Below are positions 3,056 to 36,085 of a DNA stretch of 64,000 nucleotides, piece by piece (the first letter of the stretch is position 1; the number at the start of each line of letters is the position of its first letter). The notes beneath the pieces were generated by a model. It was not told where the DNA came from. It made no database searches and worked only from the letters and a program-made list of their open reading frames with translations. The DNA is from an uncultured Flavobacteriaceae bacterium. Its GTDB lineage: Bacteria; Bacteroidota; Bacteroidia; Flavobacteriales; Flavobacteriaceae. The position numbers and the translations under genes were made by a program. The stretch is taken from positions 186,001 to 250,000 of the forward strand of contig CANNAC010000001.1 of the NCBI GenBank assembly GCA_947502495.1, read 5' to 3'.

Positions 3056-4018
3056 TTATTTAGAGCCTAAATAAAGCGTCGCTTCACCTAATCCACTAAT
3101 AGTTAATTTATTTATAATCCCCAAATCTTTAAGATAAGCGCTTAAGCCTTTAGCCCAAGTTCTGGCATCCATTCCTCTAATTCTTCCATTTCTCTCATAA
3201 GTCATAGGGATTCTAACTTGTTCAAAATTCATCATTGTTGCCTCGGCATCCATTGTTGTGTATGCTCCATTTACACAGTTGTCATTTAACCAATTTTCGA
3301 TTAAAAAGCCTAGTTCATCATCTCCAAAATCTTCAGATTCTAAATCGTATCCCCAATCATCCCAAACACGAATTCCCAAATTAATTTCTCTACCTTTATG
3401 AAACCATCCATCAAAAGTAGTTTGTAAGCTTGCTAAAAACTTGTCAATTCTAGAACTCACAGCTTCTTCTAATAATAATGGTAATGGACTAGAAAAGTCT
3501 GGAGCTCCTGTACCAGAAGTTTCTGCTATTTGTTTTCCTGTATAAGCATCTAGACCTCTTAAGATAAAAGTAACTTGTTTTTCAAGTCCATTATCATTAA
3601 TTGCCCAACTCATTTCAAGAATGATATCTGCTTTAGCTGTTTTTTTAAGAGCTTCAACAGGTGTTTCAGAAACTTCTGCTCCAGTGTTTTTTGAAGCTCT
3701 TAATTCTTGTTCAGCGGCTTTAGCTTCTACTTTTTTTAGTTCTGCAGATAAGTCTTTTGCGCTAAATCCTCTTTCACTTAATAAACCATTAATTTGAGTA
3801 ATCACTAAGGCCAAATCACTATTACGTTGAAGTGCCATTTGGTACAATGGGATATCTTTAATCACACCTTGATTGTTAATCGTTTGTGTGTATCCGTTTT
3901 CAAAGCACCAAGTATCTGCTGGTACTACCATAAGAGTTGGTTTTTTAGCTTGAGAAAACGATACGTTTGCCGCTAATAGAGTGATGATTATTACTAATGT
4001 TTGTTTTTTTAATTTCAT
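3056..4018 (-). CDS. Exported DUF6175-like / CsgG-like protein (operon gene 3)
   Basis: This 320-residue protein has a Sec signal peptide (cleavage near SFSQ-A). Its start (KKPTLMVVPADTWC) and its middle (KADIILEMSW, then FILRGLDAYTGKQIAETSG) resemble the periplasmic CsgG/LpoB-type fold, in which a strand describing the element '...DAYTGK...' is typical; I believe it belongs to the Bacteroidota family DUF6175, from memory only. A helical segment rich in Ala/Lys (about residues 100-130) separates the halves. It sits 11 bp downstream of the next gene in the operon. Function unknown; a role in an envelope assembly is inference. Confidence 0.7.
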   Translation of the reverse strand: MKLKKQTLVIIITLLAANVSFSQAKKPTLMVVPADTWCFENGYTQTINNQGVIKDIPLYQMALQRNSDLALVITQINGLLSERGFSAKDLSAELKKVEAKAAEQELRASKNTGAEVSETPVEALKKTAKADIILEMSWAINDNGLEKQVTFILRGLDAYTGKQIAETSGTGAPDFSSPLPLLLEEAVSSRIDKFLASLQTTFDGWFHKGREINLGIRVWDDWGYDLESEDFGDDELGFLIENWLNDNCVNGAYTTMDAEATMMNFEQVRIPMTYERNGRIRGMDARTWAKGLSAYLKDLGIINKLTISGLGEATLYLGSK

Positions 4019-4029
4019 TTTTATTAGTT

Positions 4030-4557
4030 TTAAAAACCACTATCCAGTGATTTTATAATGTTTTCATTTTCTAGTGTTTTTCTTAAAAGAGCAACGTTTA
4101 CAGTAACTAATGTGCCAATTCTGTATTCTTTTTTACTTACTTTTATTCTGTCTGTCACACCATCTATTACATTAACATATTTACTAAAATTATTAAGGTC
4201 TTTTTTGCCTTTACTTTCAAAAAAAATATTAAAAAATTCTTCAAATTCCGTTTCTAAGTTTGGAGATCTCGCTAATGCTGGTTTTGAGGTACACTTGGTA
4301 CCTTGTGCATTAATTCCTTGAAATATAACAGCATGAACAGCGTTTTTAGAAGCTTGTACTCTGGCAATACTTTCATCTCTTAATATTGAAAAAACTTTAA
4401 GCGTGTATACTCCTGCTTTCGCTTCTCCAATACATTCAATATCATAATTCCATTTAGCAGTTTCTGTATCTGCTTTTTTCTTATTTCTTCTAGATTGGGC
4501 ATTTGTCGTTCCAACTGTAAAAAATAAGATTGCAATAAAAAGTAATGTCTTTTTCAT
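4030..4557 (-). CDS. Small exported protein of unknown function (operon gene 2)
   Basis: A 175-residue protein with a Sec signal peptide (cleavage near TNAQ-S), then a basic stretch (SRRNKKK). A helix with regularly spaced alanines (ARVQASKNAVHAVIFQGI) followed by a strand resembles the repeating 'A-x3-A-x3-A' helix of LPP20 and FlgT-like envelope proteins. It ends with a predicted beta-strand (GTLVTVNVALLRKTLE). It starts 2 bp after the stop of the upstream gene, so translation is probably coupled. Not recognised further. Confidence 0.7.
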   Translation of the reverse strand: MKKTLLFIAILFFTVGTTNAQSRRNKKKADTETAKWNYDIECIGEAKAGVYTLKVFSILRDESIARVQASKNAVHAVIFQGINAQGTKCTSKPALARSPNLETEFEEFFNIFFESKGKKDLNNFSKYVNVIDGVTDRIKVSKKEYRIGTLVTVNVALLRKTLENENIIKSLDSGF

Positions 4558-4559
4558 GA

Positions 4560-5870
4560 TTATTGAATTTGTCTGATTAACATTCCTGAAGCTAAATTCT
4601 TTACTTTTCCTTTAAAAAGAGTTTTACCTAATTCTTTTTCTTCATTAGCTCCATAGCGGTTATCCCATATTTGCTTTTTGTCCACTTTAATAGTTGCAAT
4701 TTTCTTGTATGTTACATCATTAGTTTCGTTGTTCCATATCTCCTCAAGGACCTCAAAGCTTTCGCCTCCTTCTAATCCTTCTTTCATACCTATTTTAGAA
4801 TAAATTTCACCATCTTCAATTAATATTGGGGACTTGGTTTTAAACACATCATATTTTTTTTGAAGTTTGCTATATACCATATCTATGTTTCGAATGGTAG
4901 ACAATTCAATAATCTGTTCTTCTGTTCTTTTTTCTTTTAATGAAAACGTAACTAGACTTCTAGCATTTTCTTTTCCAATAAATTCAAAGTTTACATCCAA
5001 AGTAGCAAAACTTACATCTTCGCCATTTTTTTTAGTCTTAATTAGGTTTGCTAAATCGGCCCAAGACTTGTCTGTCCAATCTAAACGATATAACCAAGCA
5101 GTAGTCCAAACCGAGTATCCTTCTTTTGTTTTATTATATGCTTTTTCAGAAGCTTTTAGAGCTAAAGTTTTAGCCATAGATGATAATTCATTTGCTACGG
5201 CATCAGCAGTTTTTTTAACTGCTAAAGCTATTGGTTCATTAGAAACAAAATTCATTTTTGTAAAAACGACAAAAGTGTTTTTTATTAAATATTTTCCAGA
5301 GTTTTTAAGTTCATTAGTTCCTCTACTAGTGGTGTTTGCTTCAGATATTTCTTGCGCACTAGCACTGTAAATTCCTCTATCTTGAATAAGCTTCATTGGG
5401 TTATAGTTATCTTCACCAAAATGATCGAGATTAAACCATTTAGAAACCAATTCAAAAGGAAGTTTTTTTGCTTTAACAAATTTGTCAATTTCATACTGTA
5501 CTTCTGAGTTATCAGTTACAGCTCCAGAAGTAGCATTAGTGGCAGCATCAGATAAAGCGCTACCAATCATTTCATTCGCTTTACTTTTGCTAATACCTAG
5601 TTCTTCTCTTTCTTCATCTGTTAGTGTGTATTCAGATCTGTTAAAAGAATTTAATTCAACTCTTTGATCATTATATTTATCAGGGAATGGCCAAGCTTCA
5701 TAATACTTAGCAACTAAATCTGACTTTTCAAAGCTTTCGCCCATCACTAAAACGTTGTGAAGGGAACTTCTCTGGTATTTTTTTTCTTGTATTTTAGTTT
5801 TTTGAGCCGATACTCCTTGGATAGCGCATATTAATAGGGATAGAATAATAATGTTTTTTTTGTTTTTCAT
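4560..5870 (-). CDS. Exported protein of unknown function (operon gene 1)
   Basis: First gene of the operon, 436 residues, Sec signal peptide ending near GVSAQ. No known catalytic motif is visible. It has a Ser/Ala/Thr-rich segment (about 105-120), a long Ala/Lys helix (about 215-250), and alternating strands in the C-terminal third with a 'SKIGMKEGLEGGESFEVLEE' segment that looks like a small beta-barrel of the kind seen in FlgT/LpoB C-terminal domains. All four operon products are exported and none has a lipobox, so they may form one periplasmic complex. That is inference. Confidence 0.7.
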   Translation of the reverse strand: MKNKKNIIILSLLICAIQGVSAQKTKIQEKKYQRSSLHNVLVMGESFEKSDLVAKYYEAWPFPDKYNDQRVELNSFNRSEYTLTDEEREELGISKSKANEMIGSALSDAATNATSGAVTDNSEVQYEIDKFVKAKKLPFELVSKWFNLDHFGEDNYNPMKLIQDRGIYSASAQEISEANTTSRGTNELKNSGKYLIKNTFVVFTKMNFVSNEPIALAVKKTADAVANELSSMAKTLALKASEKAYNKTKEGYSVWTTAWLYRLDWTDKSWADLANLIKTKKNGEDVSFATLDVNFEFIGKENARSLVTFSLKEKRTEEQIIELSTIRNIDMVYSKLQKKYDVFKTKSPILIEDGEIYSKIGMKEGLEGGESFEVLEEIWNNETNDVTYKKIATIKVDKKQIWDNRYGANEEKELGKTLFKGKVKNLASGMLIRQIQ

Positions 5871-8160: not shown

Positions 8161-8715
8161 TTATTCAATAATACCTCCACAACTTACGCGTCCACCAGCA
8201 TTTCCTGTTGGTTGGCCATAATCGTCTGCTTCGGCATGAACAATAATTGCTTTTCCTAAAATATCTTTCTTTGGATCTCCACAACCTAAACACCATTCGT
8301 CAGTAGAAAATTCTACATATGCTCTACCATTTTCTTCCGCAGTTAAATTACCAATATCTCCTCTGTGGTATCCAGCGGTATCGCCCCATTTTCCGTGAGG
8401 TTGCGCAGTAGGGTTCCAATGTCCTCCAGAAGAGGTTCCATCTGCTGCAGAGCAATCTGCTTTTTCATGAATATGCATGGCGTGTGTTGTTCCTGGATCC
8501 ATTCCTGTAATAATAGCAACCATTCTAATTTCCCCGTCTTCTTCCGTAAAAGCAATATTACCTTTCACCTTACTATCGCTTTTTGGTTCCAGTTTCATCT
8601 TTACTTTTTTAGCGGTCATCGCCTTGGTAGTTCCTGTTTCTTGTTTCACTTCCTTTTTACAACCAAATGCAAAAATGACACTTAAAGCTAAAATAAAAAT
8701 GCTACTTCTTTTCAT
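8161..8715 (-). CDS. sodC: Cu/Zn superoxide dismutase, lipoprotein
   Basis: This 184-residue periplasmic enzyme converts superoxide to oxygen and hydrogen peroxide. The metal ligands are all visible: H81 and H83 (HIH), H99, H107, H117, D120 and H160, with a disulfide pair C88 and C179 in the RVSCGG motif. An extra Cys pair sits at C142/C145 (WCLGCG). The N-terminus has a lipobox (FAFGC, Cys19), so it is probably anchored to the outer or inner membrane. It may protect the copper and iron-sulfur respiratory enzymes encoded nearby. Confidence 0.95.
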   Translation of the reverse strand: MKRSSIFILALSVIFAFGCKKEVKQETGTTKAMTAKKVKMKLEPKSDSKVKGNIAFTEEDGEIRMVAIITGMDPGTTHAMHIHEKADCSAADGTSSGGHWNPTAQPHGKWGDTAGYHRGDIGNLTAEENGRAYVEFSTDEWCLGCGDPKKDILGKAIIVHAEADDYGQPTGNAGGRVSCGGIIE

Positions 8716-8798
8716 TATTAAACGAGTTTTAGATTAAATACTAAAGTTAAAATATATTTAGGGAATAACAAATTATAAAACGGAAGGGTTTTAATAAT

Positions 8799-9428
8799 TT
8801 ATTTATCGCGTAAATACGTACTAATTACTATTTCTACATCTTCCCAAGTCTTACTTACGCCATCTGCTCCTTTATGTAAATCCAAACAAACTTTATTTAA
8901 TGTTTCTAAAGCGCTTAAAGCATTCCAGTTTTTAAGATCCATAGTAGCCTTCATGGTTACACGTCTTTCATCGGTAATACTGTAATCTAAAGGTAAATCT
9001 GCAGTAACACCATTCATGGTTATAGCAGCTACATAATTACCATTCTCATAAGTAATGATACCGTTTATTAAATCGGGATCTAACATAGCACCAAAGAAAG
9101 AGGCTTTTAATTTAGCGTCTCTAGTATCGTCCTTTGTAAATAAACTACTTACAGGAATAGAAAACTTTAAATTGTTTAAAGCTTCTTCCGGTGTAGCACC
9201 AGATTTGCTTTCAAAATTTAAGGTTGCGAATTCTCCTCCAACAGGTACTTTGTCTGTTGTTTTAAATGCAGTCCATTTTACAGAGGTTGCTTCCGGCTTG
9301 ATAATAAAGGAATTTATTGCTTCAGCAGCTTCTATTACTGGAGTTTCTGTTTCTTTTTTTTCTTCTTTACAAGAAGTAAATAGTAATGAAGTTACTGCTA
9401 ATATTGTTAAAAATTTTGTGATTCTCAT
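8799..9428 (-). CDS. YceI-like lipoprotein
   Basis: A 209-residue lipoprotein (lipobox LLFTSC, Cys20) with a YceI-type lipocalin-like domain: SVKWTAFKTTDKVPVGGEF at the start, the conserved pattern of strands with LKASFFGAMLDP in the middle, and a final KVCLDLHKGADGVSKTWEDVEI. YceI proteins bind isoprenoid or other lipid-like molecules in the periplasm, and many are stress-induced; ligand unknown here. It is transcribed divergently from hemN. Confidence 0.85.
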   Translation of the reverse strand: MRITKFLTILAVTSLLFTSCKEEKKETETPVIEAAEAINSFIIKPEATSVKWTAFKTTDKVPVGGEFATLNFESKSGATPEEALNNLKFSIPVSSLFTKDDTRDAKLKASFFGAMLDPDLINGIITYENGNYVAAITMNGVTADLPLDYSITDERRVTMKATMDLKNWNALSALETLNKVCLDLHKGADGVSKTWEDVEIVISTYLRDK

Positions 9429-9520
9429 AATTATTTATTTAATGTTTCCGTAAAGTTAAGTAGATAAAAGCGCCCATGCAAGCACATGCTAACATCTTAA
9501 TTATTTCATTTTTATTAATA

Positions 9521-9563
9521 TGATATATGTCATATTTTTTATGGTTTAACCAATGTAATTTTG
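9521..9563 (+). promoter_or_regulatory. Fnr-type box and promoter of hemN
   Basis: Palindrome TGAT-ATAT-GTCA (9521-9532), flanked by AATA and TATT, followed by a perfect -7 element TAATTTTG (9556-9563). The box centre is 29.5 bp before the T of the -7 element, which puts it near -40, a class II activator position. Confidence 0.8.
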
Positions 9564-9567
9564 ATGT

Positions 9568-10932
9568 ATGGCAAACGAACTAATTAGTAAATATAATGTT
9601 GCAGGACCTCGTTACACGAGTTATCCTACAGTTCCTTATTGGAATAATGACACTTTCTCTTTAAAAATGTGGAAAGCATCTTTAATACAATCTTTTCAAG
9701 AAAGTAATGATGCAGAAGGTGTTAGTTTATACATTCATTTACCATTTTGCGAAAGCTTATGTACCTTTTGTGGCTGTAATAAACGTATTACTAAAAGACA
9801 TGAAGTGGAGTCGCCTTATATCACTGCGGTTTTAAAAGAATGGGATTTGTATTGTAATCTTTTAGAAACGAAACCAAATATCAAGGAATTACATTTAGGT
9901 GGCGGAACACCAACTTTTTTTACACCGCAAAATTTAGAACGTTTAATTAAAGGTATTGTGCGTAAAGCGACACTTGCTGAAAATCATGAGTTTAGTTTTG
10001 AAGGACATCCAAATAATACAACAAGGGAACATTTGCAAACACTTTTTGATTTAGGATTTAAACGTGTAAGTCTTGGTGTGCAAGATTATAATGAAACGGT
10101 GCAGAAAGCAATACATAGAATACAACCTTTTGAAAACGTAAAACGCGTTACAGAAACCGCTAGAGCGATTGGATATACTTCCATAAGTCATGATATTATC
10201 TTCGGATTGCCTTTTCAAACCGAAGCACATGTACAAGAAACGATTACTAAAACCAAATTACTAAAGCCAGACAGAATTGCTTTTTATAGTTATGCGCATG
10301 TACCTTGGATTAAAGGAAACGGGCAACGTGGTTATAAAGATAGTGATTTACCAACTCCGGAAAGTAAAAGAAATCAATACGAACTAGGTAAGAAAATGCT
10401 ATTTGAAGCAGATTACGTAGAAATTGGTATGGATCATTTTGCATTGCAAACAGATGCATTATACCAAGCGACAACCAATAAAACACTGCATAGAAATTTT
10501 ATGGGATATTCCGCTTCTAAAACGCAGGTTATGATTGGGCTTGGAGTTTCTTCCATAAGCGATAGCTGGTATGGTTTTGCACAAAATGTAAAAGGATTAG
10601 AAGAATATTACCATTTAGTAGAAGAAGATATTATTCCGGTGTATCGCGGACATATTTTAAACGAAGAAGACCTAGTGATTAGAAAACACATCTTAAATCT
10701 TATGTGTCAATTGGAAACTTCTTGGTCTACTACAGAAAATTATTTTTCAGAGTTGCCAGATACATTAATAAAATTAAAAGAAATGGAACAAGATGCACTA
10801 GTCGAAATCTTTTCCAATAAAATAATAATAACAGAAAAAGGAAAACCCTTTGTTCGAAATATTTGTATGGCTTTCGATTTGCTTTTGCAACGCAATAAGC
10901 CAGAAGCACAACTATTTTCAATGACCATTTAA
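9568..10932 (+). CDS. hemN: Oxygen-independent coproporphyrinogen III oxidase
   Basis: HemN is a radical-SAM enzyme that decarboxylates coproporphyrinogen III to protoporphyrinogen IX without oxygen, allowing heme synthesis in anoxia. The 454-residue protein has the cluster motif C61-x3-C65-x2-C68-x-C70, the glycine-rich SAM motif (HLGGGTPTF), and the HemN C-terminal domain with LGVSSIS. The standard family start (KYNVAGPRYTSYPTVPYW) supports the ATG at 9568. That ATG is only 5 bp past the -7 element, so the mRNA may be leaderless. It is in an operon with the universal stress gene 12 bp downstream. Confidence 0.97.
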   Translation: MANELISKYNVAGPRYTSYPTVPYWNNDTFSLKMWKASLIQSFQESNDAEGVSLYIHLPFCESLCTFCGCNKRITKRHEVESPYITAVLKEWDLYCNLLETKPNIKELHLGGGTPTFFTPQNLERLIKGIVRKATLAENHEFSFEGHPNNTTREHLQTLFDLGFKRVSLGVQDYNETVQKAIHRIQPFENVKRVTETARAIGYTSISHDIIFGLPFQTEAHVQETITKTKLLKPDRIAFYSYAHVPWIKGNGQRGYKDSDLPTPESKRNQYELGKKMLFEADYVEIGMDHFALQTDALYQATTNKTLHRNFMGYSASKTQVMIGLGVSSISDSWYGFAQNVKGLEEYYHLVEEDIIPVYRGHILNEEDLVIRKHILNLMCQLETSWSTTENYFSELPDTLIKLKEMEQDALVEIFSNKIIITEKGKPFVRNICMAFDLLLQRNKPEAQLFSMTI

Positions 10933-13124: not shown

Positions 13125-15095
13125 ATGAATAATTTAATGAAATCAACGCTTGCAGTTTTAGGTGTTTTAGTAGCATTTACAAGTTGTAATAATTCGGGTA
13201 ACTCAGATAAAAAATCTGGAGCCTTAGCAAGTAATGTAGCAGAAAAGGTTTACATAGCACCTGGTGAATACGATTCGCATTACGCATTTTTATCTGGTGG
13301 TTATAGTGGTAATCTTACGGTTTACGGTTTGCCTTCTGGTAGAATGTTTAAGGAAATCCCTGTGTTTTCTCAATTTCCAACCTCAGGTTATGGGTATTCT
13401 GAAGAAACAAAACCTATGTTAAATACGTCACACGGATTCATTCCTTGGGGAGATGCGCACCATCCAGATATTTCGCAAACAAAAGGAGAAATTGACGGGC
13501 GTTTTATCTTTATAAATGAAAATAACACACCAAGAATTGCAAAGATCGATCTAAAAACATTTGAAACGACAGAGATTATTGAAGTTCCAAATAGTGCAGG
13601 AAATCACAGTTCTTCTTTTGTTACAGAAAACACAGAATATGTAGTTGCAGGGACTCGTTTTTCGGTGCCAATTCCGCAACGTGATATGCCAATTAAAGAA
13701 TATAAAGGGAACTTTAAAGGTGCCTTATCTTTTATAAGTGTTGCTCCTGAAACGGGAGAGATGGATATCAAATTTCAAGTACTAATGCCAGGTTTTAACT
13801 ATGATTTATCACATCCCGGACGTGGAAAATCACATGGATGGTTCTTCTTTACTACCTATAATACAGAAGAAGCAAGTACCCTTTTAGAAGTGAATGCTTC
13901 TCAAAATGATAAAGATTTTATTGCAGCTATAAACTGGAAAAAAATTGAAGAATATGTAAATAATGGTGGCGGTACAATGATGCCTACTAATTATGCGCAT
14001 AACGTTTATGACGAAGACACACATACTGCTACATCTATAATGAAAAAAGAAGTTCGAGTGGTTAATCCATCAGAAGTTCCTGGAGCAGTTTACTTTATTC
14101 CAACACCAAAATCACCACATGGTTGTGATGTAGATCCAACTGGAGAATATATTGTTGGTAATGGAAAACTATCTGCAAACTTAACGGTGCATTCGTTTAT
14201 AAAAATGCTAGATGCGATTGAAAACGAAAAATTTGCTGGTGAAGCGTACGGAATCCCTATTTTAAACTTCGAAGATGTTTTAGCTGGAGTGGTAGAACAA
14301 CCAGGATTAGGACCGTTGCACACCGAGTTTGATGGTAAAGGAAATGCATATACTACGTTCTTTATTTCTTCTGAAGTTGTAAAATGGAAAATAGGAACAT
14401 GGGAAGTTATCGATAGAAAACCTACATATTACTCTGTTGGTCACTTAACAATTCCTGGAGGAAACTCAGGGAAACCACAAGGGAAATATATGTTTGCAAT
14501 GAATAAAATTACCAAAGATAGATACTTACCAACAGGTCCCGAAATGGAGCATTCTGCACAATTGTATGATATTTCAGGAGATAAAATGGAATTACTTTTA
14601 GATTTTCCAACACATGGAGAACCACATTATGCTGCTGCAATGGAAGCTAGTTTGATAAAAGAACGCTCTCAAAAAATCTATAAACTAGCAGACAACAAAC
14701 ACCCATTTGCTGCTAAATCAGATGATGATACCAAGGTAGTTAGAGAAGGTAAAGAAGTACATATTTACATGACAACTATTAGAAGTCATTTCTCCCCAGA
14801 TAATATTGAAGGTGTAAAAGTAGGAGACAAAGTATACTTCCACGTAACTAATTTAGAGCAAGATTTTGATGTACCTCATGGATTTGCGGTAATAGGTCAA
14901 AACAATTCTGAATTACTAGTTATGCCAGGACAAACAAAAACATCTGTTTGGGAACCAAAACAAGTTGGTGTATGGCCATTCTACTGTACCGATTTCTGTT
15001 CTGCTTTACATCAGGAAATGCAAGGATATATTAGAGTATCTGCTGCAGATTCAGACACACCAATCAAATGGTCTCTTGGAGAAGATATTGAATAG
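13125..15095 (+). CDS. nosZ: Nitrous-oxide reductase, clade II (Sec/lipoprotein type)
   Basis: NosZ reduces N2O to N2 in the periplasm using the CuA and CuZ copper centres. The 656-residue protein has an N-terminal Sec signal with a lipobox (FTSC) and no twin-arginine motif, the mark of clade II. The beta-propeller part carries the CuZ histidine regions (DAHHPD, SHPGRGKSHGW, PKSPHGCDV, GPLHTEF, HGEPHY). The C-terminal cupredoxin has the CuA ligands C621, C625, H629 and M632 (FYCTDFCSALHQEM) and an upstream His in DVPHGF. It is followed by two strong hairpins before the next gene. Confidence 0.97.
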   Translation: MNNLMKSTLAVLGVLVAFTSCNNSGNSDKKSGALASNVAEKVYIAPGEYDSHYAFLSGGYSGNLTVYGLPSGRMFKEIPVFSQFPTSGYGYSEETKPMLNTSHGFIPWGDAHHPDISQTKGEIDGRFIFINENNTPRIAKIDLKTFETTEIIEVPNSAGNHSSSFVTENTEYVVAGTRFSVPIPQRDMPIKEYKGNFKGALSFISVAPETGEMDIKFQVLMPGFNYDLSHPGRGKSHGWFFFTTYNTEEASTLLEVNASQNDKDFIAAINWKKIEEYVNNGGGTMMPTNYAHNVYDEDTHTATSIMKKEVRVVNPSEVPGAVYFIPTPKSPHGCDVDPTGEYIVGNGKLSANLTVHSFIKMLDAIENEKFAGEAYGIPILNFEDVLAGVVEQPGLGPLHTEFDGKGNAYTTFFISSEVVKWKIGTWEVIDRKPTYYSVGHLTIPGGNSGKPQGKYMFAMNKITKDRYLPTGPEMEHSAQLYDISGDKMELLLDFPTHGEPHYAAAMEASLIKERSQKIYKLADNKHPFAAKSDDDTKVVREGKEVHIYMTTIRSHFSPDNIEGVKVGDKVYFHVTNLEQDFDVPHGFAVIGQNNSELLVMPGQTKTSVWEPKQVGVWPFYCTDFCSALHQEMQGYIRVSAADSDTPIKWSLGEDIE

Positions 15096-20607: not shown

Positions 20608-22050
20608 ATGAAAACTATACTAAAATTAATGACGCTTATTCTAGCACTAACGATGTTTAGTTGCTTTAATAACAAAGAAACAGAATATGCAAATACAGAA
20701 GATATTCCTGTAAATCGAGAAATGCTAGCCGAATTAACTTCGCCACCAAATGTTCCAACTCCTATAGGAAGACGTAAAGCAAAAAAACTTATCGTTAAAA
20801 TGGAAATTCTTGAAAAAGTTGGAGAAATGACCGATGGAGTAGAGTATATGTATTGGACTTTTGGCGGAACAGTTCCCGGAAGTTTTATAAGAACTAGAGT
20901 AGGCGATGAGGTAGAGTTTCATTTACAAAATCACCCAGATAACAAACTGCCTCATAATATAGATATGCATGCTGTTACAGGTCCTGGTGGAGGAGCAGAA
21001 TCTTCTTTTGTAGCTCCCGGACATGAAAAAGTGTTTTCTTTTAAAACCTTAAATCCAGGATTGTACGTTTACCATTGTGCAACTGCTCCAGTAGGAATGC
21101 ATATTGCGAACGGAATGTATGGATTAATTTTAGTAGAACCGGAAGGTGGTTTACCTCCAGTAGATAAAGAATACTACATCATGCAAGGTGACTTTTATAC
21201 CAAAGGAGCTAATGGGGAACGTGGATTACAGCCTTTTGATATGCAAAAAGCAGTAGATGAAAAAGCCGATTATGTAGTATTTAATGGTAAAGTTGGAGCA
21301 CTTACAGGAGATAATGCGATTACTGCTAAAGTAGGAGAAACGGTAAGACTGTTTGTTGGTAATGGCGGACCTGGTTTAGTGTCTTCTTTTCATGTTATTG
21401 GTGAAATTTTCGACCGAGTACATGTTGAAGGCGGCGATTTAATTAATGAAAATGTACAAACTACTTTGATTCCTGCTGGTGGCGCTGCAATGGTAGAATT
21501 TCGTGTCGATGTACCTGGAACTTTTATTATAGTAGATCACTCTATATTTAGAGCCTTTAATAAAGGTGCTTTAGGAATGCTTAAAGTAGAAGGTGAAGAA
21601 AACAAGAAAATATATTCTGGTGAAATTAGAGATGATATTTATTTACCAGAAGGTCCTGGAATTCAAAGTATGCCAACGACAGACGAAGTGGTTGCATCCG
21701 AAATTCCTGCAAAATCTTTTGAAGAGCAAATGGAATTTGGTAAAAATGCATACATGCAAACCTGTTTTGCTTGTCATCAAGCAGAAGGACAAGGTATTCC
21801 AAATGCGTTTCCTCCTTTAGCAAATTCAGATTATTTAAATGCCGATGTAGATCGTGCTATCGGAATTGTTTTACGCGGAAAAACTGGCGAAATCACAGTG
21901 AATGGTGAAAAATATAATAGTGTTATGACCAGACAAATGTTATCTACAGACGAAATTGCAAATGTGATGACATACGTGTATAACAGCTGGGGAAACTCTA
22001 AAAAAGTAGTTACCAAAGAAATGGTAGAAAAAGTTAAAAAAAGTAAATAA
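20608..22050 (+). CDS. nirK: Copper nitrite reductase fused to cytochrome c
   Basis: NirK reduces nitrite to nitric oxide in the periplasm. The 480-residue protein starts with a lipobox (MFSC, Cys19). The two cupredoxin domains carry the type 1 copper ligands H116, C157, H165 and M170 and the type 2 ligands H121 and H156, plus a His in SSFHVIGE and one near residue 313 in VDHS. The last 100 residues are a class I cytochrome c with C386-F-A-C389-H390 and a likely Met ligand in NSVMTRQM. The fused heme domain would pass electrons directly to the type 1 copper. Confidence 0.97.
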
Positions 22051-24926: not shown

Positions 24927-25388
24927 TTACTTCCAAAATACATCTTCTAGATTATCTTTAAAATCCTCTGTTTGATGTATTTTTTCTATTTGAAGCATTT
25001 GTGCTTCCGTAGCAATTTTCTGTATTTCGGGAAACAAAACGCGTTCTTCAAATCGGATGTGTTGTTCTAAAGCTTCTTCTATTTTACTTAACGTTATGGC
25101 ATGGTCTTCGGTTTCAGCAAACAAACCTTTTATATGTTTGTGATCTGCTAAAGCCTTTTTTATAAGTTCATGCTCCTCTTCTAGAATAGTGAAAATATGC
25201 GTTTCTTCCATTTCAAAATGCGGAATCAAGTGCGTTTTAAAAAACCAATTAGCGTACGTTCTTATGCGTTCTGGTGCAATATCCTTACTAAATCCAGTTT
25301 TAATTTTCCAGGATAATAATAAACCTTGATGATGCTCTCTGCTTAATGGTTGTAGTGCTTTATGACGTTTTTGTGGTTTGTGTTGCAT
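24927..25388 (-). CDS. Hemerythrin-like di-iron protein
   Basis: A 153-residue four-helix protein with the hemerythrin ligand set: REHHQG (helix 1), HLIPHFEMEE (helix 2), DHKHIK (helix 3) and HIRFEERVLFPEI (helix 4). Such proteins bind O2 or NO at a di-iron site. The gene overlaps the oxidase-like gene before it by 29 bp, so the two are co-translated and probably work together. Confidence 0.9.
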   Translation of the reverse strand: MQHKPQKRHKALQPLSREHHQGLLLSWKIKTGFSKDIAPERIRTYANWFFKTHLIPHFEMEETHIFTILEEEHELIKKALADHKHIKGLFAETEDHAITLSKIEEALEQHIRFEERVLFPEIQKIATEAQMLQIEKIHQTEDFKDNLEDVFWK

Positions 25389-26571
25389 CTTGTTTTGTTT
25401 TAATAATATGTAATAAAATAAAAAGAATTCCTAGAGGTAATAAAATACTAAATAGGAATAATAGCATGTAGTAATTATTAAGGATTCCTTCTCCAAAGTA
25501 AAATTTACAACCTTGAATAAGTAATAGCATTTCGGTTAATACGAATCCCAAAAGAAAACTGTAAACCCCAATATATAACGATTTTGTAAATCGGACTAAT
25601 CGAGTGTTTAATATAAACGAAAATAAGAAACCACTAATAATACCAAGCATCATTAAATGGATAAAACCAATTATAAAGTTGCGATGTTCGAATACCACTA
25701 GTGAAAACTCCGGAAAAATAGATAATGCTTGCAAAAGTGTTTTTAATACAAAACATACTACGCTAAAGAAATATAGATATAGTACTATTTTAGGCTTTGC
25801 GCTTGCATGGTTCAACAGATTAGGCTTAATAAGTTTTAGAAAGAAATAAAGGCTAGCAATTTGTAAAAGAATACCCAATGCATTAATATAAAGTAATGCT
25901 TTATGTGGTGCAAACCATTGAATAGGCAAGGCGAAAGTTAAAATAGTAGCGGCTATTAATAAGCTGAAGAATACGCTAAAAAGTTTAGAATCTTCGATCT
26001 GAAGTAAATGAAAAAACATAGCAATAACAGCTATTAGAAACCAACCATTAAACTGAAAATGTAAAAAGAACTGAATGGCTATTTGGTAAAATGCTGATGC
26101 TTGTCCGAGTATAGAAACCGCCGGTCCCAAACACCAAACACCAAGTGTAGAAAGCACCATAAATAGGAGTGAAGCCTTTAGTAGTTTTTTGGTTACTACC
26201 GATTCGGTTTTGTGGTTTTTCCAAATGAGATAGGCAAAATAATAACTACAGAATATATGTAAGGTAGAAAAGGAAATGGAAATTGCAGCATAACCTTGCA
26301 ACGGAAAGCTTATCATCATACCAATAACGGCAAATTCGGTAAGCCAAAATAAACGATTATAAATAGGTTTTTTGTCTGGAATGAAATAATGTACTATTAG
26401 CGTAAATAGCATAAGGTAAACCCAGCCTAACATGGCAACATGCGAATGTGCGTGTGTTAAAAAACGATAATTTAAACCAATAGATTCTAAAACCGAAAAT
26501 CGTAGCGCTAAACCCATTAGGGCTGCAATGAAGAAGTTAATTAAACAAACAAGAATTAATTTTTTTTGCAT
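25360..26571 (-). CDS. Divergent heme-copper-oxidase-like membrane protein
   Basis: A 403-residue protein with about 12 transmembrane segments. Several helices line up with cbb3 subunit I (CcoN, also in this window): THAHSHVAMLGW (H40, H42, H44) with the low-spin heme helix, FFLHFQFNGWF with the CuB-His helix, WFAPHKALLY with the CcoN motif GPHHLLY, and FIIGFIHLMMLG with IIAHVHVGAL. One CuB His and the proximal His of the high-spin heme seem lost. It is not a typical CcoN, NorB or NnrS. It sits between RIC and a hemerythrin protein, so an NO-related heme protein is likely. Function is unproven. Confidence 0.75.
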   Translation of the reverse strand: MQKKLILVCLINFFIAALMGLALRFSVLESIGLNYRFLTHAHSHVAMLGWVYLMLFTLIVHYFIPDKKPIYNRLFWLTEFAVIGMMISFPLQGYAAISISFSTLHIFCSYYFAYLIWKNHKTESVVTKKLLKASLLFMVLSTLGVWCLGPAVSILGQASAFYQIAIQFFLHFQFNGWFLIAVIAMFFHLLQIEDSKLFSVFFSLLIAATILTFALPIQWFAPHKALLYINALGILLQIASLYFFLKLIKPNLLNHASAKPKIVLYLYFFSVVCFVLKTLLQALSIFPEFSLVVFEHRNFIIGFIHLMMLGIISGFLFSFILNTRLVRFTKSLYIGVYSFLLGFVLTEMLLLIQGCKFYFGEGILNNYYMLLFLFSILLPLGILFILLHIIKTKQDATQTTKTS

Positions 26572-26613
26572 TATAAAATAAAATAGCGCTTACGTAAAGG
26601 GATATGTTTTAAT

Positions 26614-26654
26614 AAAAATCCCAGAACATGTTTAGGGAAATGTTCCAGGATTTT
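26614..26654 (-). terminator. Hairpin after the RIC gene
   Basis: AAAATCC (26615-26621) and GAACAT (26624-26629) pair with ATGTTC (26640-26645) and GGATTTT (26648-26654), with a 2-base internal mismatch. On the minus strand it is followed by a T-rich run. Confidence 0.6.
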
Positions 26655-26687
26655 CTAAGTACTAAAGTTACAAATTATAAATTGCTA

Positions 26688-27419
26688 TTAATCAAATTGT
26701 TGCTCTAGTTTTATTGCTTCCGGAAATAAGATATTATTTTCTAAATGGATATGTAAATGCAAGTCTTTTTCAAATTCATCCAGCATTGCAAAAGTTACTT
26801 TATAGGTGTTACAAGCATCTGTTGGTGGCGTATAGTTATCGGTAAGTTCTGCTATTTCTCTAAAACGCTCTCCTTCGGTATCGTGCTCCTGCATCATCAT
26901 GGCAATTGGATTTTCAACGGTTCCAAATTGTGGTGATTGTATTGCTACGTGATCTAGTTTTGCTTTCACCATTCTTTTTATAAAAGGGAAGAGGATGAGT
27001 TCTTCTTTTTTCATGTGCGCTGTTAATTCGCCAGCAGAAGCAGTAAATAATTCGTTTATTTTAAATAATTCTGGGTGACGCTCGCCGTGTACTTTACATA
27101 ATTTATCTAAAAACTTACGTAATACAGGGATTTTCTCTTCCACATATCTATGGTGTTTCTTTTCAATATATTCTGCTAGTAAATCTAAAGGCCAAGATTT
27201 GTAATCTATAGATACATCTGTTTTCGAGTTTAAAACAGCGTCTAACTCTTCGGCTAGCCTATTGCTATCGATTCCTTTTTTCTCACAAGCTTCTTCAATC
27301 GTTCTGTTTCCATTACAGCAGAAATCTATCTTGTATTTTGAAAAAACGGCAGCAGTTCTAAAGTCGTCTGCTACAAATTCACCTATTTGTTTCTGCGTAT
27401 TTTTTTGTAATGTTTCCAT
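26688..27419 (-). CDS. ric: Iron-sulfur cluster repair di-iron protein (RIC/ScdA/YtfE)
   Basis: A 243-residue cytoplasmic protein that repairs iron-sulfur clusters damaged by NO or oxidants. The N-terminal ScdA_N/DUF542 domain has the double Cys (C34-C35 in IDFCCNGNRT), and the rest is a hemerythrin-like domain with HHRYVEEK, HGERHPE, HMKKEELILFPF, EHDTEG and HIHLENNILFPE. It lies next to the NsrR-like gene, and a matching operator precedes each, a classic NO-response arrangement. Confidence 0.96.
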   Translation of the reverse strand: METLQKNTQKQIGEFVADDFRTAAVFSKYKIDFCCNGNRTIEEACEKKGIDSNRLAEELDAVLNSKTDVSIDYKSWPLDLLAEYIEKKHHRYVEEKIPVLRKFLDKLCKVHGERHPELFKINELFTASAGELTAHMKKEELILFPFIKRMVKAKLDHVAIQSPQFGTVENPIAMMMQEHDTEGERFREIAELTDNYTPPTDACNTYKVTFAMLDEFEKDLHLHIHLENNILFPEAIKLEQQFD

Positions 27420-27497: not shown

Positions 27498-27521
27498 ATT
27501 TCGGATAATTTTATCCTAATT
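27498..27521 (-). promoter_or_regulatory. NsrR-like operator upstream of RIC
   Basis: A 24-bp near-palindrome with core GGATAAT-TTTATCC. Its right half TTTATCCTAATT is identical to that of the operator at 28010. A weak -7 element (TACTTCTA, 27486-27479 on the minus strand) lies at the same distance from the operator centre as the -7 of the regulator gene. Confidence 0.7.
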
Positions 27522-27536
27522 ATATTCAAATTTTTT

Positions 27537-27971
27537 TTAGATCTTTAAAAAAGAAGCTCCTGATTTTATACCTAATGCAAGTTCTTCTAAATTGGTAGTT
27601 TCTAACATATGTTTTAATTCATCGCGTATCACTTTAAATTTATCATGCACGGGACAAGGATGATTTTCATCGCATTTTTCTAGACCTAATCCGCAACCAC
27701 TATAAATTTTATCGCCATCGATAGCTTCTACTATTTGTGTAAGCTTTATGGATGCAATAGTATCTTTATCTATAATAAAACCGCCATGCGCACCTTTTAC
27801 CGATTTAATAAGGTCATTTCTAACTAATGCTTGCAATATTTTTGCAGTAAAAGCTTTGGGAGAGTTTATTTCTTCCGAAATTTCCTTAGGAGAAACTAGT
27901 TTGCCTTCAAACGAATTTTTCGCAATAAAAATAGATGCTCTTATTCCATACTCACAAGCTTTTGAAAACAT
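27537..27971 (-). CDS. Rrf2 family regulator, NsrR-like
   Basis: A 144-residue winged-helix repressor of the Rrf2 family. The N-terminal DNA-binding helix pair is MFSKACEYGIRA plus SPKEISEEINSPKAFTAKILQALVRNDLI and KGAHGGF. The iron-sulfur ligands are C93, C100 and C106 (C-x6-C-x5-C), close to the NsrR pattern. NsrR senses NO through its cluster and lets go of DNA. The gene has its own operator and is followed by RIC, so it very likely controls the NO defence genes; IscR is less likely given the neighbours. Confidence 0.9.
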   Translation of the reverse strand: MFSKACEYGIRASIFIAKNSFEGKLVSPKEISEEINSPKAFTAKILQALVRNDLIKSVKGAHGGFIIDKDTIASIKLTQIVEAIDGDKIYSGCGLGLEKCDENHPCPVHDKFKVIRDELKHMLETTNLEELALGIKSGASFLKI

Positions 27972-27990: not shown

Positions 27991-28033
27991 CAAATATAAA
28001 TAAAAAATCAATTAAGATAAGTTTATCCTAATT
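27991..28033 (-). promoter_or_regulatory. Promoter and operator of the NsrR-like gene
   Basis: Operator 28010-28033: AATTAAGATAAG facing TTTATCCTAATT, 24 bp with two mismatched pairs. A perfect -7 element TATATTTG reads 27998 to 27991 on the minus strand. The operator centre falls near -34, over the upstream promoter element, which fits autorepression. Confidence 0.75.
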
Positions 28034-33901: not shown

Positions 33902-36085
33902 CTAGTTTTGAGTGATTTCTAAATCTTTAACTTTAATATCGGTACCTAAACGTTGTAAATAAGCAATAAGAGCTACAATTTCACGATTACGCATTTCTAT
34001 AAATTCTGCACCTCCAGCTGCTTTATCTACTTCGTAGGTTTCTGCAAAATCAGGATCTGCATATAGATTTTTTTCAATTTGCGTACCTTGATCTAACATG
34101 GCTTGTTGCGCATTTGCAATTTCTTCCTCGGTATATGGTACACCTAAAGTTACCATAGCTTCCATTTTCTTCTCGGTTAGTGATTTGTCAAGTTCATCTC
34201 TAATGATCCATTTATACGATGGCATGATAGAACCAGATGATGTACTTTGTGGATCATACATATGGTTTAGGTGCCAGTTGGCTGAATATTTGCCTCCAAT
34301 ACGATGTAAATCTGGTCCAGTACGTTTAGAACCCCAAAGGAATGGATGATCGTAAACATATTCTCCTGCTTTCGAGTATTCTCCGTAACGTTCTACTTCA
34401 GATCTAAAAGGACGAATCATTTGTGAGTGACATCCAACACAACCTTCACGAATGTAAATATCACGACCTTCTAATTCTAAAGGCGTATATGGTTTTACAC
34501 TGGCAATTGTTGGTATATTCGACTTCACCATGATAGTTGGTACTATCTGCACAATACCACCAATTAAAATAGCAATGGTCGCTCCAATAGTTAATTTAAT
34601 AGGCTTACGCTCTAACCAAGTGTGCCATCCTTCGCCAGCAGTACGTTTTTTAGAAACATGTTGTAATGCAGGAGCTTCGGCTAATTCGTCTTCCACTTTA
34701 CTACCTTGTTTTATTGTGATGTAAACGTTATACACAAGAATTAGCATTCCTATAATATATAGTGTTCCACCAACAGCACGCATGTAGTACATTGGCATAA
34801 TTTCGGTAACGGTTTCTAAAAAGTTACCATACATTAAAGTACCATCTGGATTAAACTGTTTCCACATACTTGCTTGTGTAAATCCAGCAACATAAAGTGG
34901 TAAAGCATAAAATATAATACCTAAAGTCCCAACCCAGAAATGCAGGTTAGCCAGTTTTAAAGAATATAGTTTTGTTTTAAATAGTTTTGGTACTAAGTAA
35001 TAAATCATACCAAAGGCTAAGAAACCATTCCAAGCTAAAGCACCAACGTGCACGTGTGCAATAATCCAATCGGTAAAGTGACCAATCGCATTTACATTTT
35101 TAAGAGAAAGTAAAGGTCCTTCAAAAGTTGCCATACCATAACCGGTAAGTGCAACAACCATAAATTTTAAAACAGGATCTGTACGTACTTTATCCCAAGC
35201 ACCACGAAGTGTTAATAGTCCGTTTATCATTCCTCCCCAAGAAGGCATTAATAACATTACAGAAAATGCTACACCAAGATTTTGTGCCCATTCTGGTAAA
35301 GCGGTATATAGTAAATGGTGAGGTCCAGCCCAAATGTAAATAAAGATTAAAGACCAAAAGTGAATGATAGAAAGTCTATAGGAGTACACCGGTCTATTTG
35401 CAGCTTTAGGAACAAAGTAATACATCAATCCTAAGAAAGGTGTTGTTAAAAAGAATGCTACGGCGTTATGTCCGTACCACCATTGTACCAATGCATCTTG
35501 AACTCCTGCGTATACCGAATAACTTTTCATAGCGCTAACAGGTAGCTCTAAACTATTAAAGATATGTAATACAGCAACGGTTACAAAAGTGGCTATGTAA
35601 AACCAAATAGCAACATATAAATGACGTTGTCTTCTTTTAATCATGGTACCAATTAAATTGATTCCAAAGGCAACCCAAATAACAGCAATGGCAATATCAA
35701 AAGGCCATTCTAATTCTGCATACTCTTTAGAAGTTGTATATCCTAGCGGTAATGTAATGGCAGCACCAACAATAATAGCTTGCCATCCCCAAAAATTGAT
35801 TTTACTCAATAAATCGCTATACATTCTCGCTTTTAGAAGACGTTGTGTAGAATAGTAAACACCGGCAAAAATCGCATTACCAACAAAGGCAAAGATTACT
35901 GCATTGGTATGTAATGGTCTTAATCGACCAAAGCTTAACCAAGAAATACCTTCCATGTAATTTGGGAAAATAAAAAGAAAAGCTAGCATTAAGCCCACTG
36001 TCATACCCACAACTCCCCAGAGAATAGTGGCATAAAGGAAATTTTTAACGATTTTGTTATCGTAATAGAATTGTTCTTTTTCCAT
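33902..36085 (-). CDS. ccoNO: CcoN-CcoO fusion, cbb3 oxidase subunits I and II
   Basis: The catalytic core of the high-affinity cbb3 oxygen reductase as one 727-residue chain. Residues 1 to about 480 are CcoN, with the heme and CuB ligands in RPLHTNAV, WYGHNAV, GPHHLLYTALPEW and AHVHVGALAWN. After a charged linker, CcoO starts with a transmembrane helix (near 500-520) and has the heme c site C549-V-G-C552-H553. Fusion of CcoN and CcoO is usual in Bacteroidota. The operon promoter is upstream of ccoS. Confidence 0.97.
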   Translation of the reverse strand: MEKEQFYYDNKIVKNFLYATILWGVVGMTVGLMLAFLFIFPNYMEGISWLSFGRLRPLHTNAVIFAFVGNAIFAGVYYSTQRLLKARMYSDLLSKINFWGWQAIIVGAAITLPLGYTTSKEYAELEWPFDIAIAVIWVAFGINLIGTMIKRRQRHLYVAIWFYIATFVTVAVLHIFNSLELPVSAMKSYSVYAGVQDALVQWWYGHNAVAFFLTTPFLGLMYYFVPKAANRPVYSYRLSIIHFWSLIFIYIWAGPHHLLYTALPEWAQNLGVAFSVMLLMPSWGGMINGLLTLRGAWDKVRTDPVLKFMVVALTGYGMATFEGPLLSLKNVNAIGHFTDWIIAHVHVGALAWNGFLAFGMIYYLVPKLFKTKLYSLKLANLHFWVGTLGIIFYALPLYVAGFTQASMWKQFNPDGTLMYGNFLETVTEIMPMYYMRAVGGTLYIIGMLILVYNVYITIKQGSKVEDELAEAPALQHVSKKRTAGEGWHTWLERKPIKLTIGATIAILIGGIVQIVPTIMVKSNIPTIASVKPYTPLELEGRDIYIREGCVGCHSQMIRPFRSEVERYGEYSKAGEYVYDHPFLWGSKRTGPDLHRIGGKYSANWHLNHMYDPQSTSSGSIMPSYKWIIRDELDKSLTEKKMEAMVTLGVPYTEEEIANAQQAMLDQGTQIEKNLYADPDFAETYEVDKAAGGAEFIEMRNREIVALIAYLQRLGTDIKVKDLEITQN

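Follow-up and report, generated by a model that had tools for sequence, protein, structure and literature searches.

A predicted heme-copper oxidase-fold protein family of Bacteroidota with an incomplete catalytic site, encoded among nitric oxide-related genes

Results

The HCO-like gene and its locus

The window analysed here, a stretch of 64,000 nucleotides from the genome of an uncultured Flavobacteriaceae bacterium, carries on its minus strand (25360..26571) a gene with an ATG start that encodes a protein of 403 residues. This protein, called here the HCO-like protein, belongs to an unnamed family and is predicted to have 12 transmembrane (TM) helices in the heme-copper oxidase (HCO) fold, with an N-in/C-in topology. 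Upstream and on the same strand lies the gene of the di-iron Fe-S repair protein RIC/ScdA/YtfE (26688..27419, minus strand; TIGR03652, 250.7 bits, over cut-off), followed further upstream by a gene for an Rrf2-family, NsrR/IscR-like regulator (27537..27971, minus strand; TIGR00738, 86.5 bits, over cut-off), for which the NsrR and IscR models both stayed below their own cut-offs. On the other side, a hemerythrin-domain gene (24927..25388, minus strand; PF01814, 37.3 bits, over cut-off) overlaps the 3' end of the HCO-like gene by 29 bp. The first-pass annotation had placed the gene between RIC and a hemerythrin gene, with this same overlap, and both the open reading frame (ORF) coordinates and the TIGR03652 and PF01814 matches confirm it. 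The HCO-like gene is under purifying selection, with a dN/dS of 0.12 over 403 codons when compared with a same-genus copy.

The wider context comprises a NirK-type copper nitrite reductase (20608..22050, plus strand; TIGR02376, 352 bits, over cut-off, within the ORF), NosZ (matched region 13239..15041, plus strand; TIGR04246, 933.6 bits) and a canonical CcoN, recognized as such by its motifs (matched region 34760..36055, minus strand; PF00115, 391.5 bits). In the gap between the RIC and HCO-like genes there is a terminator-like hairpin (26608..26668, minus strand) with a 16-bp stem and a U-rich tail (-17.5 kcal/mol, z -4.4). Thus, the HCO-like gene may be transcribed partly separately from RIC. 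Moreover, a palindrome, AGGATAANNTTATCCK, which is a candidate site for the Rrf2 regulator, lies 5' of RIC (27502..27517, no mismatches) and again 5' of the Rrf2 gene (28014..28029, one mismatch). Allowing up to two mismatches, it gave six matches in the window, compared to 1.2 expected; with both strands counted, these represent three sites. Note that the palindrome core was not enriched genome-wide (7 exact matches, compared to 9 for the reversed control) and is therefore only a candidate autoregulatory site.

The HCO-like protein belongs to a family without a curated name

The window protein had no match in the NCBIfam, PHROG or PDB sequence searches. In Pfam nothing passed the cut-off: the single line obtained, at E 0.49, was unrelated, and there was no match to PF00115 and none to PF05940 (NnrS) at E≤10. 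The family profile (A1) had no match among the PDB sequences either. When 33 diverse members were scanned singly against Pfam at E≤1, ten families were matched; DUF2871 (PF11070) was touched by 7 of the 33 (best 4.9e-5) and COX1 (PF00115) by 4 (best 8.1e-4), and PF05940 was absent from the ten. The likeness of some members to DUF2871 is weak, and this family of unknown function has a model of 134 positions, as against 400 aa. An NCBIfam scan of the same 33 members found no naming family. Thus, the HCO-like protein belongs to a Bacteroidota family without a curated name, in support of the first-pass annotation, which had suggested that it might be of a new type.

Of 558 confirmed places the best 80 were kept, and the named relatives among these are Bacteroidota, mainly genera of the Flavobacteriaceae such as Winogradskyella, Algibacter and Flavobacterium. 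Other phyla were covered through plasmids and through a search of genome contigs (best 80 of the 558 places). The plasmid search with the window protein gave one match, a hypothetical protein of Tunicatimonas, and the one with a more distant family protein (from the second set described below) found no relative. A literature search of listed titles and abstract openings, with most subscription papers and non-PMC preprints outside its reach, found no description of the family.

The predicted structure is that of an HCO subunit I

The HCO-like protein was modelled with AlphaFold using an input of 43 sequences (the window protein and 42 relatives), and the model has a mean pLDDT of 91.5 and a pTM of 0.91. 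A Foldseek search with this model at E≤0.001 returned nine matches, all of them chains of cbb3, aa3 and cNOR complexes. VIA-align, run on Foldseek's own matches, superposed the model on 8smr_E (Z 35.6, rmsd 2.9 over 393 residues, about 11% identity) and on 4xyd_A from a cNOR (Z 35.2, rmsd 3.0 over 385 residues), chains which we take to be the subunits I CcoN and NorB, respectively; the aa3 oxidases gave Z values of about 30. As far as prediction can establish it, the HCO subunit I fold spans the entire chain, and the first-pass annotation, which had proposed the helix pattern of cbb3 subunit I, is supported by the model. In addition, the loops rich in Lys and Arg alternate as they do for 12 helices with both ends inside, following the positive-inside pattern. 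With the N-terminus inside, the model places both predicted heme His residues near the outer face.

A low-spin heme site is predicted and the catalytic site is incomplete

Ligands were mapped with two sets of family sequences. The main set holds 67 (the window protein plus 66 from the same taxonomic family) and the second set 16 from the phylum, with the 881-aa frame of locus L218 and the 4-TM protein of L224 left out; one of the 16, L222, resembles the main set. L068, the locus of genome G070, was left out of the alignments. The sets were aligned as profiles with 22 NO reductase (NOR) sequences, mostly qNOR, and the ligand roles in NorB and CcoN, like the pore layout of HCOs, are textbook knowledge. 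The full-length register used here is the second alternative of a global hhalign run (probability 15%, p 4e-4); the program preferred a repeat-shifted register that puts family helices 1-4 on NOR helices 9-12. Because the alignment probability is low, the mapping leans also on the agreement of motifs in helices 2, 6 and 10.

Only six residues are the same in every one of the 83 aligned sequences: R24, H42, H44, G93, Y94 and H305. At the outer end of helix 2, in the H40-A-H42-S-H44 motif (codons at 26440..26454, minus strand), H42 aligns with the low-spin heme His and is flanked by two extra His, H44 (83/83) and H40 (77/83). In helix 10, H305 (25657..25659, minus strand; 83/83) aligns with the second low-spin heme His. 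The low-spin ligand described in the first-pass annotation therefore has its counterpart in H42, with H305 as the second His of the helix-10 pair. The high-spin heme His, which that annotation had described as lost, is replaced by F303 (25663..25665, minus strand). The residue at this position is Tyr, Phe or Trp in 82 of the 83 sequences and Leu in the other one; the high-spin His is thus absent from all 83, and the catalytic centre is incomplete in all of them.

Regarding the CuB/FeB site, H171 in helix 6 (26059..26061, minus strand) aligns with a CuB/FeB His and is kept in 66/67 sequences of the main set and in 2/16 of the second. N175 (26047..26049, minus strand) takes the position of the FeB Glu of NorB; it is Asn in 61/67 of the main set and Glu in 13/16 of the second, where the Glu goes with the mostly lost H171 and where position 167 is His in 12/16. 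E347 in helix 11 (25531..25533, minus strand) is present in 67/67 of the main set and mostly replaced by other residues in the second. The CuB His pair of helix 7 aligns with L215/P216, so both His are gone in the window protein; within the main set there is a His at 215 in 5/67 members, at 216 in none of the 67, and somewhere within residues 205-220 in 12/67. The earlier suggestion of one or two retained CuB positions thus holds for one, H171, and fails for the second. The 'PH' at 222-223, previously taken as half of the CuB pair, does not correspond to it: in the model, H223 falls beyond the end of helix 7, and only 32/67 homologues have a His there. A mapping by motif spacing, with H44 as ligand and Q218/W219 as the lost pair, was also tried and rejected because the profile alignment gives H42 and L215/P216, with H44 still possible as the ligand. 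In the joint set, the strongly conserved residues lie in helices 2, 4, 6 and 10 and in the 3-4 turn, and helices 7, 11 and 12 have none. Taken as a prediction from the aligned sequences, the family would hold one heme b and no O2- or NO-reducing centre.

Five divergent members (L063-L067) have His at both 171 and 215, that is, at two of the three CuB positions. They carry Trp at 303 and Phe or Tyr at 175, and might be an intermediate or a separate subfamily.

Family loci in other genomes

We counted the neighbours in 63 of the 64 fetched family loci (L032 was missing, and the short L020 and L025 were not in the count). RIC is the immediate upstream gene on the same strand in 29 of the 63, and in 21 of the 23 closest loci. 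The immediate downstream gene encodes a hemerythrin in 13 of the 63, and in 13 of the 23 closest, overlapping the family gene in 12 of these 13 when the longest ORFs are taken. The association with RIC and hemerythrin raised by the first-pass annotation is therefore present in some loci but is not universal. Within 4-5 kb, the neighbours include nirK, nos, qNOR, cNOR, truncated hemoglobin and nadBA-like genes; one representative each was checked for the qNOR, cNOR, cytochrome c, globin and COX3-like labels, and the nos accessory, norD/norQ, SCO, SUMF and nad labels were given by eye. Among 16 more distant loci, from order to phylum level, nosZ is near 14, a cytochrome c near 11 and RIC near 8; note that no family ORF was seen in L216 and L226 in the scan of these distant loci.

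Three fusions in all were found among the fetched loci. In L111, from a metagenome-assembled genome, the family protein is fused to a hemerythrin domain, and in L239 and L240, from two species of one genus, a CxxCH cytochrome c domain is joined to it in frame. The predicted topology fits these fusions, with the hemerythrin at the cytoplasmic C-end and the cytochrome c behind an extra hydrophobic segment.

Two further features of the loci were observed. L229 and L230 show two family copies in one region, one by nos genes and the other by RIC/Rrf2, a possible functional split. Moreover, genes labelled by eye as nadB-like and nadA-like lie near the HCO-like gene in 11 and 9 of 78 loci, respectively, with examples in L042, L044, L046, L047, L070, L093, L094 and L171.

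The family gene co-occurs with NO-related genes

The family gene is present in 67 of 199 genomes sampled from the same taxonomic family, after one of the 68 matches (G070, a partial match with two stops) was dropped. By the NOR alignment, 48 genomes scored at least 228 bits, the next value being 78 bits. NirK was over cut-off in 38 genomes and NosZ in 87, and RIC was counted in 78, of which 75 were over cut-off and 3 scored 150-163 bits. The family gene is found in 44/48 NOR genomes, 35/38 NirK genomes, 59/78 RIC genomes and 52/87 NosZ genomes, and in 0/89 genomes with none of the four. The four pairings with NOR, NirK, RIC and NosZ gave Fisher p values below 1e-11, not corrected for phylogeny, and in a simple regression the largest coefficient was that of NOR. 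NosZ alone is not enough, as the gene is present in only 2 of 26 genomes with NosZ and without RIC, NOR and NirK. Thus, the NO-related setting that the first-pass annotation had proposed from one locus is also seen across the 199 genomes. In a phylum-wide draw, the A1 profile matched at E≤0.001 in 69/296 genomes, the weakest matches being partial or frames of about 155 aa.

The first-pass annotation had also pointed out that the window holds nirK and nosZ without an NO reductase. As far as searched, this holds for the whole genome: the NOR alignment gave no match at E≤1e-5, and PF00115 at E≤1 matched only CcoN and a second gene of oxidase type, located on contig C15. Divergent NorB variants in L042 and L070 still score 101 and 93 bits, respectively, with PF00115, and a NOR of known kind should therefore have been seen. 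The family gene was considered as a replacement for the NO reductase and this was rejected, most carriers (44/67) also having NOR; it goes with NO handling generally and is no substitute for NOR.

The NorB-like proteins just mentioned (L042, 9444-10805, minus strand; L070, 389-1726, plus strand), which come from the same taxonomic family, are another ligand-variant type of NOR. They have AHSMG instead of the helix-10 HxH and no helix-6 HxxxE, and they keep the helix-7 His pair.

Finally, we searched the 199 genomes for NnrS. None was over cut-off and there was one weak partial match; this search was silent in 14/14 control genomes as well, with PF05940 giving 380 bits on the NnrS of pSymA.

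Discussion

The defining feature of the heme-copper superfamily, in its well-studied members, is an O2- or NO-reducing centre. The family described here has the entire predicted fold, is under selection and is associated, in a major phylum, with NO metabolism, and of the cofactor sites it would have only that of an electron-transfer heme. With CcoN it shares the 12-TM fold along the full length and the low-spin heme His pair, but CcoN has the high-spin heme His and the CuB His pair, both missing here, and no CcoO/CcoP-like neighbour genes were noted at the locus. With NorB it shares the fold, the NO gene setting and a helix-6 motif, HxxxN-G in the family versus HxxxE-G in NorB; it differs from NorB in lacking the FeB His pair and the heme b3 His and in having Asn for the Glu. 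Compared to the catalytic HCOs in general, the three CuB/FeB His are not found together in the family, although H171 remains.

The fourth protein to be compared is NnrS. PMC1274295 describes NnrS as a heme/copper membrane protein of about 400 aa that belongs to NO regulons together with dnrN (ytfE, which encodes RIC), dnrN and nnrS being core members of these regulons in Proteobacteria. The HCO-like protein resembles NnrS in having an HxH motif near its start. It differs in that neither it nor the 33 scanned members match PF05940. A search of the PDB sequences with one NnrS had no match. Aligned end to end with the second set, NnrS gave p values of about 3e-4 and 0.005 for the two directions, which is only a hint. 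NnrS protects Vibrio cholerae from NO.

Since NnrS was not found in the family sampled and the HCO-like protein is encoded beside RIC and denitrification genes, we propose for it an NnrS-like accessory role: our best reading, to which we give an even chance, is that it works in the inner membrane as an accessory hemoprotein of the NO-stress response and takes the place of NnrS in Bacteroidota. We infer that it would contain heme, bind NO and be protective. The NO-binding or NO-sensing membrane hemoprotein suggested by the first-pass annotation would be compatible with these findings. A bis-His site, formed by H305 with H42 or H44, would hold a heme b near the outer face. Lacking the high-spin ligand and a complete CuB/FeB site, the protein would not reduce O2 or NO by a known mechanism; instead, the heme b might bind or buffer NO, or pass single electrons to or from a periplasmic cytochrome c. 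Jointly with RIC and the hemerythrin protein, it would protect respiratory and Fe-S enzymes, its role in Bacteroidota being that of NnrS in the proteobacterial NO regulons. Several observations count against this proposal. External ligands normally have no access to a bis-His heme; RIC and the hemerythrin are cytoplasmic, whereas the heme would sit close to the outer face; and the terminator-like hairpin stands between RIC and the HCO-like gene. Moreover, the distant loci have nosZ nearby oftener than RIC, L063-L067 keep His at two of the three CuB positions, the alignment of NnrS with the main family profile is not significant, and the NnrS search was silent in its controls.

The main rival to the NO-stress proposal, raised by the cytochrome c fusions, is a membrane electron relay in which the heme b would connect quinol with a periplasmic cytochrome c, the electron donor of NosZ or of some other enzyme of denitrification. 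The in-frame fusions in two species of one genus, the cytochrome c and nosZ genes near most of the order- to phylum-level loci and the position of both heme His near the outer face all speak for it. However, genomes with NosZ as the only one of the four markers rarely have the gene, the close clade has RIC and hemerythrin as neighbours and lacks that cytochrome c there, and no quinol site was identified. We consider the relay rather unlikely. The close association with NOR could instead reflect a non-catalytic paralogue that helps NOR or another denitrification enzyme in assembly, heme delivery or regulation. This is distinctly unlikely in our judgement: the gene is present in nearly all NOR genomes and NOR has the largest regression coefficient, but 23 of the 67 carriers have no NOR and the invariant His at heme positions argue for a cofactor of its own.

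That the protein is an unconventional NO reductase standing in for the missing NOR would suit a genome in which NirK and NosZ are present and NOR was not found, and the gene indeed occurs in 6 of the 8 genomes with NirK and no NOR; the helix-6 His is kept too, and the five divergent members have the His at 215 besides. Nevertheless, this seems very unlikely, given the aromatic residue at the high-spin position in 82/83, the loss of two of the three CuB His in the window protein, a helix 7 without any strongly conserved residue and Asn for the FeB Glu in 61/67. Furthermore, the gene is also present in 29/30 genomes that have both NirK and NOR, and 17 of the 67 carriers have neither. The first-pass annotation had also considered a degenerate reductase, for which the loss of catalytic ligands would speak. 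That the gene is a functionless oxidase or reductase in decay is, however, scarcely credible with a dN/dS of 0.12, six invariant residues in 83 sequences and a recurring genomic setting.

A further idea, which we regard as unlikely, is that the reactive site has moved on the HCO scaffold, creating a new gas-reactive centre in which H44 would serve as ligand to a heme or metal located in the fold's third pore. To our knowledge, this pore is unused in the known members of the superfamily. The idea would agree with an emptied reactive pore, seen in the aromatic residue at the high-spin His position and the unconserved helix 7, and with the conservation in helix 2 (HxHxH), the 3-4 turn (G93-Y94) and helices 4 and 6. 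The best local profile match, which puts family helix 2 on NOR helix 10, is a hint in the same direction; the HxH of NOR helix 10 serves two hemes. If true, this would add a third use of the HCO fold.

In Bacteroidota, where the taxonomic family sampled yielded no NnrS, the HCO-like protein is a concrete and testable candidate for a missing part of NO handling. It is relevant to the survival under NO of denitrifiers that, like the one studied here, have NirK and NosZ and no detectable NO reductase, and also to the evolution of the 12-helix fold.

Three other proteins seen in the loci are worth noting. The 155-aa protein of L224 (2846-3310, minus strand) matches the first third of COX1 (41.7 bits, over the Pfam cut-off), and its matches to DUF2871 and to the last third of NnrS (E 7e-5) stay under cut-off; going by these matches, it is possibly a 4-helix relative of the heme-copper fold that links this fold to NnrS. 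In L244, near the HCO-like and RIC genes, a membrane protein of 428 aa (3350-4633, plus strand) has a weak COX1 match over residues 15-169 (E 1.1e-5, under cut-off) and possibly represents a further divergent HCO-like family. Finally, L228 encodes, near NnrS on pSymA, a hydrophobic His-motif protein of 452 aa (8235-9590, minus strand) that has no Pfam match and that, by eye, looks like the same kind of protein.
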